A stretch of 35,712 nucleotides of DNA from Bacteroidota bacterium (lineage in GTDB: Bacteria > Bacteroidota > Rhodothermia > Rhodothermales > JAHQVL01), in the NCBI GenBank assembly GCA_039111535.1, contig JBCCIM010000044.1:1-35712 (forward strand), written 5' to 3'. Under the pieces are notes generated by a model. It was not told the origin of the DNA and did no database searches. It saw only the letters and a program-made list of their open reading frames with translations. The position numbers were made by a program, and so were the translations under genes. Below are positions 29,328-35,712 of this stretch, in pieces (position 1 is the stretch's first letter; the number at the start of each line of letters is the position of its first letter).

Positions 29328-30137
29328 ATGAAAAAAGGTTTACAGTTAGCACTAGCCCTCCTGTTCTTCTTTGGATCTACGGCTTTCGCCCAGGATGTAA
29401 CGCTTGCAGATGCAGACTTACCTCCTAACGCAAAAGCAGGCGAGTGCTATGCACGTGTTCTGATTCCCGAGCAGTACAAAAACACTTCAGAGCGCGTTTT
29501 GGTACGCGAAGCATCTGAGCGGATCGAAACCATTCCTGCAGTTTACCGCACGGTACAGGAACGCATTCTCGTGAAAGAAGCATCTGAGCGTCTTGAAACC
29601 GTTCCTGCTGTATACGAAACGGTTACCGAGCGTTTGCTTGTGAAGCCAGCTTATACAACCTGGAAAAAAGGCACCGGTGCCATCACCAAAGTTGACAACT
29701 CAACAGGTGAAATCATGTGTCTCGTAGAAGTACCAGCTGAGTACAAAACAGTAACAAAGCGCGTTCTGAAACAAGATGCAACGACGCGTAAAATCACTGT
29801 TCCTGCTGAATACCAGACCGTTAGCGTACGTAAACTGGTTGAGCCAGCTAAAGAGCGTCGTATTGCAATCCCTGAAGAATACCAGACGGTTGTAAAACGC
29901 GAGCAGGTAACAGATAGCCGTCTCGAATGGCGTTCTATCCTGTGCGAAACGAACACAACAACCAATGTGATCTCTTCATTGCAGCGTGCCCTCAAAATGC
30001 GTGGCTTTGATCCAGGCCGTATCGACGGTGTAATGGGTCAGCAGACCATCGAAGCAATTAGCCGTTACCAGCGCTCAAAAGGCATGGCCAGCGGTCAACT
30101 GACGATGGAAACGCTGAAGTCACTTAACGTGATCTAA
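29328..30137 (+). CDS. Secreted repeat protein with C-terminal peptidoglycan-binding domain
   Basis: 269 residues with a cleavable signal (MKKGLQLALALLFFFGSTAFA). The middle (about 45-205) consists of roughly six imperfect repeats of 20-23 residues with the pattern P-x-x-Y-x-T-V-x-x-R-x-L-V-x-x-A: IPAVYRTVQERILVKEA, VPAVYETVTERLLVKPA, VPAEYKTVTKRVLKQDA, VPAEYQTVSVRKLVEPA, IPEEYQTVVKREQV. Residues ~215-269 are a PG_binding_1 domain (LQRALKMRGFDPGRIDGVMG then TIEAISRYQRSKGMA). Cys40, Cys131 and Cys202 are the only mature cysteines. It is probably periplasmic or outer-membrane associated and wall-binding. Single gene with a strong terminator. Confidence 0.9.
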   Translation: MKKGLQLALALLFFFGSTAFAQDVTLADADLPPNAKAGECYARVLIPEQYKNTSERVLVREASERIETIPAVYRTVQERILVKEASERLETVPAVYETVTERLLVKPAYTTWKKGTGAITKVDNSTGEIMCLVEVPAEYKTVTKRVLKQDATTRKITVPAEYQTVSVRKLVEPAKERRIAIPEEYQTVVKREQVTDSRLEWRSILCETNTTTNVISSLQRALKMRGFDPGRIDGVMGQQTIEAISRYQRSKGMASGQLTMETLKSLNVI

Positions 30138-32044: not shown

Positions 32045-32116
32045 ACCTGCTGACCTTACCCCTTGAAATTGTACCAAAGGAAGTGAGAGATTTCTCATAA
32101 CTAATCCCTTGATACA

Positions 32117-32383
32117 ATGCGAAAAAGCAGATTCAACGAAGAGCAAATTATCCGTATCCTCCAGCAGCATGAGCAAGGCATGAAAGTGACTGATCTATGC
32201 CGCGAGCATAACATCAGTGAAGGCACTTTTTACAGATGGAAGAGCAAGTACGGCGGCATGGACGTCTCCGAAGCAAAGCGACTGAAGGCAATGGAAGAAG
32301 AGAATCGCAGGCTGAAGCAGATTGTAGCTGACCAGGCACTCGATATTCATGCACTCAAGGCTGCCTTGTCAAAAAAGTACTGA
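32117..32383 (+). CDS. IS3-family transposase OrfA
   Basis: 88 residues, complete. Helix-turn-helix DNA-binding protein of IS3 elements: MRKSRFNEEQIIRILQQHEQ, then DLCREHNISEGTFYRWKSKY, then a leucine-zipper helix (MEEENRRLKQIVADQALDI). The last codons cross AAAAAAG, the usual -1 frameshift site that would fuse it to OrfB as the active transposase. OrfA alone is intact, but the element is dead because of OrfB lesions. Confidence 0.93.
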   Translation: MRKSRFNEEQIIRILQQHEQGMKVTDLCREHNISEGTFYRWKSKYGGMDVSEAKRLKAMEEENRRLKQIVADQALDIHALKAALSKKY

Positions 32384-33258
32384 GGCCTGCGCAGAAGCGA
32401 GCAGCCGTGGATGTGATGCGTGATTATGATCTAAGTGAACGGCGTGCTTGTAGGCTGGTAGACCTAGCCAGATCAACGTATCGCTACGCATGTAAACGGA
32501 AGGCAGATGAAGCACTGCGTAAGCGTTTATGTGAGCTTGCAGGTGAACGTCCGAGGTTTGGTACACCGCGTCTGACCGTTTTACTTAGGCAAGAATTTGG
32601 CGCTGTTAACCACAAGCGTATTGAGCGGCTATACAGAGAAGAGAGACTCCAACTGCCTCGTAAGCGTAAGTAGCGACGTAGAGGCATCAAGCGAGCACCA
32701 CTGGTGCAGCCTGATCGCATTGGACAGCGCTGGTCACTTGATTTTATGAGAGATTCGCTCAGCGACGGTCGGCGCTTTAGGCTCCTTAGCATCATTGATG
32801 ACTTCTCCAGGCAAGCACTTGCGATTGAGGTTGATACATCAATCTCAGGCGAGCGGGTGACACGGGTGCTAGATCGCCTAATTGAGCATCACGGATTGCC
32901 AGAAGTGCTTGTGACAGGTAATGGACCCGAGTTCACAAGTAGAGCAATGCTACTGTGGGCAGAAGAACGCGGCATTGCTTTGCACTACATCGATCCTGGC
33001 AAGCCCATGCAGAATGCCTTTGTAGAAAGTTTTAATGGGCGAGTCAGAGATGAATGTCTTAATCCATCATGGTTCAGCAGCTTACAACACGCACGTGCCC
33101 ACATAAACAACTGGAGAAAAGACTACAATGAAAAGCGACCTCATAGCAGCTTGAACTATCTGGCTCCCGATGTATTTGCCAATCAATGGAAAATGTCGGC
33201 CGGACCTTCTAAATTCAACCTGAACCTCTCATTAACCCCGGTACAAACTCAGGGGTAA
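32377..33258 (+). pseudogene. IS3-family transposase OrfB, stop-interrupted and catalytically dead
   Basis: About 293 codons in the -1 frame from orfA. The HTH_21 part (MRDYDLSERRACRLVDLARS, GERPRFGTPRLTVLLRQEFG) ends at an in-frame TAG at 32671-32673 (RKRK[13 protein letters not shown]). The rve integrase core continues in the same frame: WSLDFMRD with the first Asp, then VTGNGPEF where the family has DNGPEF, so the second catalytic Asp is Gly (GAT to GGT would be one transition), and [17 protein letters not shown] with the Glu. The C-terminal HSSLNYLAP block is intact. Two independent single-base changes, each inactivating. Confidence 0.92.
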
Positions 33259-33263
33259 GGTCA

Positions 33264-33373
33264 ATCGCTTCGCTTTTGCCCATCTTTCTACAAATTTCAG
33301 CGACCTCGACACCGGACTCAGCCTGGAGAAGCGCAAATACAATTTGGGATTCAGTGAACTTTGATTTCTTCAT
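33264..33373 (-). pseudogene. Truncated OrfA of a second IS3-type element
   Basis: ATG at 33373 begins MKKSKFTESQIVFALLQAES then GVEVAEICRKMGKSEA, the N-terminal half of an IS3-family OrfA (usual length about 88). After 37 codons the frame is cut exactly at the right end of the IS at 32051-33263. The DNA from 33374 to about 33450 is probably its leader and terminal repeat. The other half is not on the far side of the intact-length IS, where the SleB-like gene lies, so a deletion accompanied or followed insertion. Confidence 0.82.
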
Positions 33374-33610
33374 GGCAATCGGGGATTAAGTTCAAGATAA
33401 CGATTGCCGGAAACTCTAATTTAGATTGGCTCAGTTTTTCGAGAGGAGATCAATAGGTCAAGTCAATAGTGTTTTACTTCAGAAGTATAATTACGCGAAC
33501 CATCGAATAATCACCACTCATAAAATCGAAGCCCAGTCACCATCAAACGCTTTTTAACTAGCAAAGGGAAACCTATTCTTCATCACAAGTAATTAATAAA
33601 ACTAAAAAAC
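33374..33610. other. IS leader remnant and AT-rich intergenic DNA
   Basis: The first ~80 bp are likely the outer end of the truncated IS. Thereafter the sequence becomes AT-rich with no frame of note, up to the stop of the thioredoxin-fold gene at 33611. No clear terminator is visible. Confidence 0.45.
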
Positions 33611-34204
33611 TCAATTTACCATACGTGCAATCAATCGATCCTTCATCAAACCACTGTCAACTGTTGAACTTGGAAAATATAATTCCTTCACTATATTATC
33701 CTTAATATAAAGCAATGCCGGCGTTTGAATCATATTCAATTCGTTCTTAAGAATCGCATTTGTATCCATAAAAACGTGCGATCTATTCGCTCTAATTGAT
33801 GCAAGCAAAGAATCATACATGCTTACAGCTATCGCATATCCATTTTTTTCAGTTTGCATCTCAATTTCCTCAAGAGCCACAGCCCCCTCCTCAACACATG
33901 AATAACAATCATATGGCCCGAACAACAAAACAATGAATTCGGGATTATTATTTACTATACTATCTCCTAAAACTAATTGAATACTACTAACTTCAGCATC
34001 AATTCGACTACGCCTCATCTCCTCCAGGCGTTCAACTGTAGCCAGTGCTTTCTTCTCAGATTCCGCACTAGCTTCTCTTAAAGATTTATTTTTAGAGTAA
34101 AAACTGGCTGCAAAAAAAGCACCACCAAGCAAAATAATCGCAACAAGAATAGTAGAAAACGAAATGCTTTTCAATATTCCTGGAAGAAACTCATCAATAT
34201 TCAT
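33611..34204 (-). CDS. Membrane-anchored thioredoxin-fold protein with CYSC
   Basis: About 197 residues from ATG 34204, which overlaps the end of the propeller gene by 11 bp; the upstream start at 34261 would lie wholly inside that gene. One membrane helix (ISFSTILVAIILLGGAFFAA) is followed by a coiled coil (KNKSLREASAESEKKALATV) and a thioredoxin-like domain: FIVLLFGPYDCYSCVEEGAV with the C-x-x-C pair at the right place after a beta strand, and IQTPALLYIKDN with the cis-Pro loop. Likely periplasm-facing thiol-disulfide exchange, like TlpA/ResA relatives. Translational coupling to the propeller gene and proximity to Cys-rich peptides suggest those are substrates; this is inference. AT-rich codon use unlike the genes before 33 kb. 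Confidence 0.8.
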   Translation of the reverse strand: MNIDEFLPGILKSISFSTILVAIILLGGAFFAASFYSKNKSLREASAESEKKALATVERLEEMRRSRIDAEVSSIQLVLGDSIVNNNPEFIVLLFGPYDCYSCVEEGAVALEEIEMQTEKNGYAIAVSMYDSLLASIRANRSHVFMDTNAILKNELNMIQTPALLYIKDNIVKELYFPSSTVDSGLMKDRLIARMVN

Positions 34205-35198
34205 ATCTATGTAATTCTGCTTTACTCCCATCAAAGACAAGAATACCATTAGAAGAAACATTTATCGCTGTACCATAAACTCTATCGCCATTACTATTCT
34301 TAAAATTCAACAATTTATATACTTGCATAGCATCAATATTCAACACTAATGCAGTATCCGAAAATTTGTCTTTTTTATGAAAAAGCACGTGCAAATTGCC
34401 CTCATACTCCGAAGCAGACCTAAATGTAATAAATGCCATTCGCTGATCAATGCCATTTCGATATTCACTCAAGATAAATTTATAGAAATCCTTCATAAAG
34501 TATCCATCTGAAAGATCTAGCCTGCTCTTCATTTCTAAATCTTTTGAGTACAGTTCAACGAGTGGTTGGAATTTAAACAAACTCACAACCTCTCCATCTG
34601 GTCTAATGAAAACCTCTCGAGCATTCAACCTATTCGTTCTTGCCTCCGAATCGTTCGATATCATTGGACTTATTTTACCAAAACCCTTATCCTCCCTCCC
34701 TCCTAAGGTAACCTTTGCCATAGGATGCTCTGAATTTCTTTGACTTGAATAGAAGGCATCATTGTATATATCAAACCCGTAGGAATACCGAAAAGGGACA
34801 GAAACAGATGACAGATACTCATTAGAAACTACACTATATTTGTGTATACGTGAATTCCCATCGTCATAGACATAAAGTGTATCTTTGTAAATACGCGAGG
34901 AACCTACACCCAAGTTTTCTCCTGGTCCACGACCGGGCGAGCCTAATGATTTAATTACTTTTAGATTTTGATCTAAAATGAGTAGTCTATTATTAGAATA
35001 GTCACTAATATAATACCGTTCATCATAGAATTTTATATCTCCTACTTGAGTCAAAAACGTTGAATCGCTTAATTCCACAACTGTTTCTTCAGGATACAAG
35101 TCCAACTCCTGAATTGCCGCATCCGAGCTCGCGAAGAATGTAAAATAAGCAAACACACAAATTAATACAGTCAATGAAATCAAAAAAAATCGCATCAT
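34194..35198 (-). CDS. 6-bladed beta-propeller protein, membrane-anchored or secreted
   Basis: 334 residues. The N-terminal hydrophobic segment (MMRFFLISLTVLICVFAYFT) is a signal or anchor. The rest follows the Bacteroidota 6-bladed propeller type (BF4221/NHL-like): DIKFYDERYYISDYSNNRLL, then LDQNLKVIKSLGSPGRGPGE, a loop diagnostic of the family, then DTLYVYDDGNSRIHKYSV, and later VHxLF and ILVFDGSKAELHRYEY blades. In Bacteroides such proteins are commonly encoded next to small NVEALA-type peptides. Here a Cys-rich peptide gene lies 159 bp upstream and the thioredoxin-fold gene overlaps its end. The function is unknown. AT-rich, likely acquired by transfer. Confidence 0.82.
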   Translation of the reverse strand: MMRFFLISLTVLICVFAYFTFFASSDAAIQELDLYPEETVVELSDSTFLTQVGDIKFYDERYYISDYSNNRLLILDQNLKVIKSLGSPGRGPGENLGVGSSRIYKDTLYVYDDGNSRIHKYSVVSNEYLSSVSVPFRYSYGFDIYNDAFYSSQRNSEHPMAKVTLGGREDKGFGKISPMISNDSEARTNRLNAREVFIRPDGEVVSLFKFQPLVELYSKDLEMKSRLDLSDGYFMKDFYKFILSEYRNGIDQRMAFITFRSASEYEGNLHVLFHKKDKFSDTALVLNIDAMQVYKLLNFKNSNGDRVYGTAINVSSNGILVFDGSKAELHRYEY

Positions 35199-35303
35199 TT
35201 ACACTAAACAAATTAGCCTGATTCATTTAAAACTGACTTGATCAAACACAACCAAGGCAGTATTCATTAAATTTCTCAATAAAAGATCATTGATGAATTA
35301 ACA

Positions 35304-35337
35304 GGGAGATGTTACACATATAATAGCAACATCTCCC
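35304..35337 (-). terminator. Hairpin between Cys-rich peptide gene and propeller gene
   Basis: Perfect 10-bp stem GGGAGATGTT / AACATCTCCC with a 14-base loop, 20 bp past the peptide stop. There is no T-run after it on the minus strand, so it may act as a partial terminator or 3' mRNA stabiliser, giving high peptide and lower propeller expression. Confidence 0.5.
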
Positions 35338-35357
35338 CGAAAACCCTCTCAACATAG

Positions 35358-35573
35358 TCAAAGCTGACAGTCAAAAACTACTCCATCACAAATGATAATA
35401 TCTGCAGTAGATAAACATTCGTTATCTCCTGAACATTGTATCGCACCACCACAATTTTCACCCTCTGGACAATCACATTGATTCATGGCAATACACGGCC
35501 TTGCATCAGCAATAGAAACTGTTGTCAAAAAACACACTGCAACCATCACAACTAATCTTATTACTTTTCTCAT
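35358..35573 (-). CDS. Small exported Cys-rich peptide (71 aa)
   Basis: Signal peptide MRKVIRLVVMVAVCFLTTVS then IADA, cleavage expected near residue 24-25. The mature part is about 47 residues, acidic, with 8 Cys: RPCIAMNQCDCPEGENCGG, then IQCSGDNECLS, then IIICDGVVFDCQL. The even number and close spacing suggest four disulfides or a metal-binding knot. A good ribosome site (AAGGA) is 8-10 bases before ATG, unusual for this window, and points to strong translation. Size and location next to a 6-bladed propeller parallel the NVEALA peptides of Bacteroides, but the NVEALA sequence itself is absent. No known bacteriocin or toxin family recognised. Confidence 0.78.
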   Translation of the reverse strand: MRKVIRLVVMVAVCFLTTVSIADARPCIAMNQCDCPEGENCGGAIQCSGDNECLSTADIIICDGVVFDCQL

Positions 35574-35607
35574 TTTTCACAATCCTTTTTTTGATCAACA
35601 AACACAA

Positions 35608-35712
35608 TTAAGCTGGATTACACTCGCAACACATTTCAAAATAATCACAAATAACACATTCGCCACTCGCATAACATGAGAATTGGCAAACTGCACCAAA
35701 AGGAGTACCATC
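35608..35712 (-). CDS. Second Cys-rich peptide, C-terminal part (5' end outside window)
   Basis: The last 34 residues of a gene entering from the right edge: DGTPFGAVCQFSCYASGECV then ICDYFEMCCECNPA and TAA at 35608. Seven Cys in 34 residues, in the same orientation, 34 bp upstream of the 71-residue peptide gene. The shared ECxxxxxICD-like pattern hints that the two are paralogues. The signal peptide, if any, is not visible. Confidence 0.65.
   Translation of the reverse strand, partial: DGTPFGAVCQFSCYASGECVICDYFEMCCECNPA

Follow-up and report, generated by a model that had tools for sequence, protein, structure and literature searches.

A recurrent gene set of cysteine-rich exported peptides, a six-bladed beta-propeller and a thioredoxin-fold protein at a contig end of a Bacteroidota genome

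The window analysed here is an entire contig of 35,712 nucleotides (G000:C44) from a Bacteroidota genome of 6.59 Mb, and its right end falls inside a gene for a small cysteine-rich peptide. Four genes lie on the minus strand at 33611–35712, in the order (5' to 3') peptide 2, peptide 1, propeller and thioredoxin-fold protein, all of which the first-pass annotation, made from the letters of the DNA, had described. Peptide 2 is present as its C-terminal part, an open frame that continues up to the contig end (35608–35712, minus strand); its 5' end lies beyond the contig, and the 34 codons present, an incomplete gene, include 7 cysteines. The open reading frame of peptide 1 (35358–35573, minus strand) encodes 71 amino acids, with a signal peptide that ends in ADA and a mature part containing 8 cysteines; the peptide has no match in Pfam or the PDB, and no second copy was found in the window's genome. 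The propeller gene (34194–35198, minus strand; 334 amino acids) is followed by the gene for a membrane-anchored thioredoxin-fold protein (33611–34204, minus strand), the ATG of which, at 34204, creates an overlap with the propeller stop of exactly 11 bp, the length originally annotated. In many modules from other genomes, these two genes likewise share 4 or 11 bp or are separated by a gap of a few bp. Elsewhere in the window, positions 29328–30137 encode an exported protein that binds peptidoglycan and contains repeated segments of the VPAEYKTV type.

The window propeller belongs to the Pfam family DUF5128 (PF17170, '6-bladed beta-propeller'), with an E-value of 6.9 × 10−16 and a score of 58.8 bits over residues 44–304, compared with the curated cut-off of 22.9. 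The AlphaFold2 model of the protein (pLDDT 86) finds its best Foldseek matches among NHL propellers, and the N-terminus forms a signal or anchor helix. An amidating-lyase function, considered on account of a PAL match, was set aside because the PAL metal site requires histidine and no conserved histidine is found in the propeller alignment (A2), in which the invariant or nearly invariant columns are M1, G89, D66, P92 and E94.

The thioredoxin-fold protein, recognised by a family profile and by its predicted structure, contains an N-terminal transmembrane segment, a CYSC motif and a T-P motif; CYSC and the proline are conserved in the family alignment. A Pfam search with the single sequence gave no match, and the family profile, compared with the PDB, recovered ResA/StoA-type proteins at 1 × 10−7. 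The AlphaFold2 structure shows a thioredoxin fold for which Foldseek returns StoA, ResA, DsbE and FetE. By this modelled fold, the CxxC motif and the cis-proline, the protein qualifies as TlpA/ResA-like. The proteins of the cassette, as we call the gene set, share with the ResA/StoA/TlpA/DsbE oxidoreductases the N-terminal membrane anchor, the CxxC motif, the cis-proline region and the thioredoxin fold, but are only about 10–20% identical to them, lack a Pfam match, vary in the CxxC dipeptide (CYSC, CAKC, CNPC, CNKC) and are encoded in linkage with peptide-propeller modules.

The GC content from position 33420 onward is 0.357, compared with 0.505 in positions 1–32000. An IS3-family element (32051–33263, plus strand) is bounded by 13-bp inverted repeats (32051–32063 and 33251–33263); its orfB, which encodes the transposase, is interrupted at 32671 by an in-frame TAG codon, and the flanking triplets (tgc and atc) give no target duplication. 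Immediately adjacent, a second IS3-type orfA, of which the 5' part remains (33264–33373, minus strand, read from the sequence within an ORF at 33215–33373), is truncated by the first element and marks the edge of the AT-rich block. Either insertion of the element at 32051–33263 into another IS3-type gene or recombination between the two produced this arrangement. Hence, the IS junction that had been annotated at the start of the block is real, but it is not a clean insertion, given the missing target duplication, the broken orfB and the truncated second orfA. The thioredoxin-fold protein had no match in two genomes of the same family, and its profile, at E-values up to 1 × 10−4, matched only two other genomes of the window's order (G030 and G035). 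Because the block 33611–35712 is AT-rich, adjoins IS3 remains and was not detected in the two same-family genomes, it was probably acquired by horizontal transfer, as originally suspected.

To what extent the gene set recurs was analysed from three starting points. A profile built from six thioredoxin-fold sequences and run on 394 genomes of the phylum matched in 24 of them. Eight cassettes at seven loci are outside the profile set (L042, L043, L044 twice, L045, L047, L048 and L057); in all eight, a propeller gene lies directly beside the thioredoxin-fold gene, and a cysteine-rich exported peptide is nearly always present, whereas weak unrelated thioredoxin matches, which served as a control, have neither a propeller nor a cysteine-rich peptide nearby. 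The propeller profile matched in 169 of the 245 genomes of the class. Around the 40 top propeller matches, none of them used in the profile, 18 strictly defined cysteine-rich secreted ORFs were found in 417 kb, compared with a single one across control loci totalling 435 kb (p = 3 × 10−5). Counted per gene, the effect is weaker, with a peptide beside 10 of 66 propellers as against 3 of 102 genes of other kinds (p = 0.006); two of the three control genes with a peptide are large ORFs adjoining the peptide, and one of these two is itself a DUF5128 propeller. Thus, many propellers of the superfamily lack a detectable peptide of this kind.

The peptide-first search employed profiles of two peptide groups and covered 296 genomes from the phylum and 114 from the order. 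Every strong new match sits in a peptide-propeller array, most of these with thioredoxin-like and MauE genes (L011, L212, L213, L214, L215); two threshold-level matches resemble noise, one without such neighbours (G508) and one reading through three stops (G260). Tandem peptide pairs ahead of the propeller, as in the window, occur at L047, L161, L165, L174 and L212. The cassettes span several families within the phylum, frequently as tandem arrays, and the thioredoxin-first, propeller-first and peptide-first searches converge on the same ones. Two outcomes had been specified beforehand as counting against the proposed gene set, namely absence of co-occurrence in other genomes and peptide homologues always located apart from the other genes; both were tested and neither was observed. 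The genes of the set form a conserved system of modules rather than a cluster assembled by chance. Among named organisms, a relative is carried by the Persicobacter sp. JZB09 plasmid CP012861.1, and a scan of named genomes with a thioredoxin pair alignment matched only two contigs, which resemble copies of L010. No relatives of the set were found in the viral contigs searched. Several thioredoxin and propeller genes in the many-module arrays at L011:190–12304 and L213 are broken by stops, suggestive of rapid turnover.

Two further components, which the first-pass annotation missed because neither is present in the window, accompany the cassette in other lineages. Genes for MauE (PF07291) lie within the cassettes of L011, L012, L042–L045, L110, L147, L158, L160, L212 and L213, but a search of the window's genome (G000, 97.6% complete) did not find MauE. 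MauE is widespread elsewhere, and since most of its neighbourhoods are unrelated to propellers, it is not by itself a marker of the cassette. ORFs of RND pumps, confirmed by Pfam as AcrB-type and located mostly in genomes of one family (f26), were found at 6 of 11 cassette loci compared with 1 of 33 controls (p = 4 × 10−4); the comparison for propellers only was borderline (p = 0.05). Further RND pumps were found at L110, L156, L158, L165 and L176, and also on the Persicobacter plasmid, where the pump and propeller genes overlap. The window itself has no RND pump, and none adjoins most cassettes of its order (L014, L047, L161, L162, L169, L178). An S26 signal peptidase gene directly follows the propeller and peptide at two loci (L110:8793–9350 and L158:6376–6990).

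Across the modules, the mature peptides are hypervariable, with 25–50 amino acids and 4 to 10 cysteines. The number of cysteines is even in 33 of 39 mature peptides (p = 7 × 10−6) and in 23 of 28 after clustering (p = 5 × 10−4), as expected because fully paired disulfides require even counts; judging from these counts, the mature peptides are apparently locked by disulfides. When nearest relatives were counted in another genome only, the same module was the nearest relative of both the peptide and the propeller in 17 of the 39 modules, compared with 1.06 expected (p = 2 × 10−4), and the agreement persisted when peptides were shuffled only among modules of one genome (p = 0.004). Peptide 1 and the propeller of the window are both closest to module L011b. 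Thus, peptide and propeller are inherited as a pair, and co-inheritance of linked genes is a simpler reading of this agreement than binding. The agreement is confined to nearest neighbours; the overall peptide-propeller correlation is not significant (Mantel r = 0.08, p = 0.08) because divergence within most pairs is too great for comparison. The similarity matrices of the thioredoxin-fold proteins and the propellers do correlate (Mantel p = 0.008).

No paper describing the gene set was found in the searchable literature, which omits most subscription papers and preprints. The NVEALA peptides of Bacteroides, to which the set had been linked, are, according to the first-pass annotation, small exported peptides encoded beside 6-bladed propellers, an arrangement that the cassette shares. 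The NVEALA model (PF14055), however, matched none of ten related peptides (E up to 5) nor the window peptide (E up to 1), so that membership in this family was rejected; the cassettes also differ in having thioredoxin, MauE and pump genes as neighbours. In 198 genomes, PF14055 gave only two weak matches, both outside such cassettes and in unrelated contexts. In some relatives, the peptide starts with a long leader, terminating at a YA-type site, that looks by eye like those of NVEALA peptides, whereas peptide 1 of the window starts with a conventional signal peptide.

The closest published idea comes from the decRiPPter study of Streptomyces (PMC7794033), where candidate RiPP families encode mauE, in one case also mauD, together with a precursor containing at least 8 cysteines, and MauE/MauD-type proteins are proposed, as predictions, to form the disulfides of such precursors. 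The likeness to the cassette lies in redox proteins of the MauE/MauD type whose genes accompany that of a small precursor with 8 or more cysteines. Those families are actinobacterial, and the passages considered mention no propeller, whereas the cassette peptides each have a co-inherited DUF5128 propeller, the modules form arrays and the genome of the window lacks a MauE match. At the level of genes, the cassette does combine a many-cysteine precursor with a dedicated thiol oxidoreductase, one feature expected of a MauE-type disulfide RiPP.

From the observed co-occurrence, the order and coupling of the genes, the even cysteine counts and peptide-propeller co-inheritance, we tentatively propose, at somewhat below an even chance, a dedicated disulfide-peptide module in which the thioredoxin-fold protein would oxidise the peptide and a cognate propeller would hold it. 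The small peptides would leave the cytoplasm through Sec and lose their leader to signal peptidase, and the membrane thioredoxin-fold protein would introduce or correct their disulfides at the outer face of the inner membrane, a redox direction that we infer; in some lineages, the linked MauE-type membrane protein may recycle it. The original suggestion that this protein acts on the peptide disulfides is strengthened by the even cysteine counts and by MauE in related cassettes, but still as an inference. The co-inherited propeller may hold the folded peptide as a chaperone, a docking platform or a means of self-protection; pairwise inheritance is compatible with the annotated idea that the propeller might bind the peptide. 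In several lineages, the neighbouring RND pump might move the peptide across the envelope or clear it, and release of the peptide, possibly through the pump, is speculative. The released peptide would act outside the cell, most likely in competition or signalling, with a structural role as another candidate; this is the weakest step of the scheme.

Chance association is very improbable. IS3 remains and the contig end adjoin the block, and the propeller family is very common in the class, so that unrelated genes might have met at a mobile-element junction; but the same set was recovered from three independent entry points, and the co-occurrence tests refute an accidental neighbourhood. A more substantial alternative is an enzyme resembling methylamine dehydrogenase, in which the peptide would be a disulfide-bonded catalytic or electron-transfer small subunit, the propeller the large subunit and maturation MauD/MauE-like. 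The mau operon encodes the propeller MauB, the cysteine-rich MauA, the thioredoxin-like MauD and the membrane protein MauE, and the cassette, with its propeller, small cysteine-rich exported polypeptide, thioredoxin-like membrane protein and, in many cases, linked MauE, parallels this list strikingly. The large subunit of methylamine dehydrogenase, however, is a 7-bladed propeller, whereas that of the cassette is 6-bladed and of the NHL type, and the peptides vary in number and sequence. Across the 39 modules, no conserved tryptophan, as needed for the TTQ cofactor, or other cofactor residue was found in these short, hypervariable peptides, and several, including peptide 1 of the window, have no tryptophan at all in the mature part. 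The propeller type and the lack of a conserved tryptophan argue against membership in the mau group; in addition, general inspection of the neighbouring genes revealed no recognisable MauG-like gene, and the window's genome yielded no MauE. Such an enzyme is, accordingly, improbable.

The peptides might instead never be released and serve envelope machinery as regulators or structural partners, such as small modulators of an RND pump or a lipoprotein complex. RND genes adjoining cassettes in several families, and overlapping the propeller gene in Persicobacter, are compatible with such a role, which nevertheless appears quite unlikely, given that most cassettes of the window's order have no pump and that strong turnover of peptide sequence is unusual for a fixed structural partner. 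Rather less easily dismissed, albeit still on the unlikely side, are toxin-immunity modules for competition, with the peptide as an antibacterial toxin folded by the thioredoxin-fold protein and the propeller as its cognate immunity protein. Tandem arrays of divergent modules with broken copies in single genomes (L011, L012, L212, L213), hypervariable cysteine-rich peptides, pairwise co-inheritance and adjoining pumps all fit; on the other hand, a PADLOC search gave no match, the peptides have no recognised toxin family, and propellers commonly occur as orphans or in multi-propeller arrays that lack peptides (L157, L170, L183).

A broader form of the disulfide-peptide proposal is decidedly doubtful, namely that the cassettes represent a phylum-wide, previously undescribed class of modular secreted disulfide peptides, each with its own NHL-type propeller and redox protein, multiplied and diverged in toxin-immunity-like arrays and exported by linked RND pumps. 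Were the disulfide-peptide proposal itself to hold, the abundant, unassigned DUF5128 6-bladed propellers would gain a concrete partner and a testable role, MauE/MauD-type redox proteins would mature peptides in settings other than methylamine metabolism, and the cassettes would point to a large reservoir, as yet unexplored, of bacterial peptides rich in disulfides. The cognate peptide-propeller pairs are short enough for direct binding and folding tests.

Degenerate extra peptide copies lie beside an intact 10-cysteine peptide at L047:3004–3276 and G035:C178:3648–3788. At L151 and L155, peptide-propeller pairs adjoin genes that, by eye, resemble those for a BlaI-type repressor, M56-type membrane peptidases and TlpA. 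MauE also adjoins a small secreted protein, DUF6520 (PF20130) or alike, at L099:5249–7289, L103:5756–7152, L096:6728–7559 and L092:5495–7073; a propeller-like protein is present at two of these loci, and mobilisation-like genes are neighbours at L092 and L099, possibly indicative of a related MauE-peptide theme on mobile elements.
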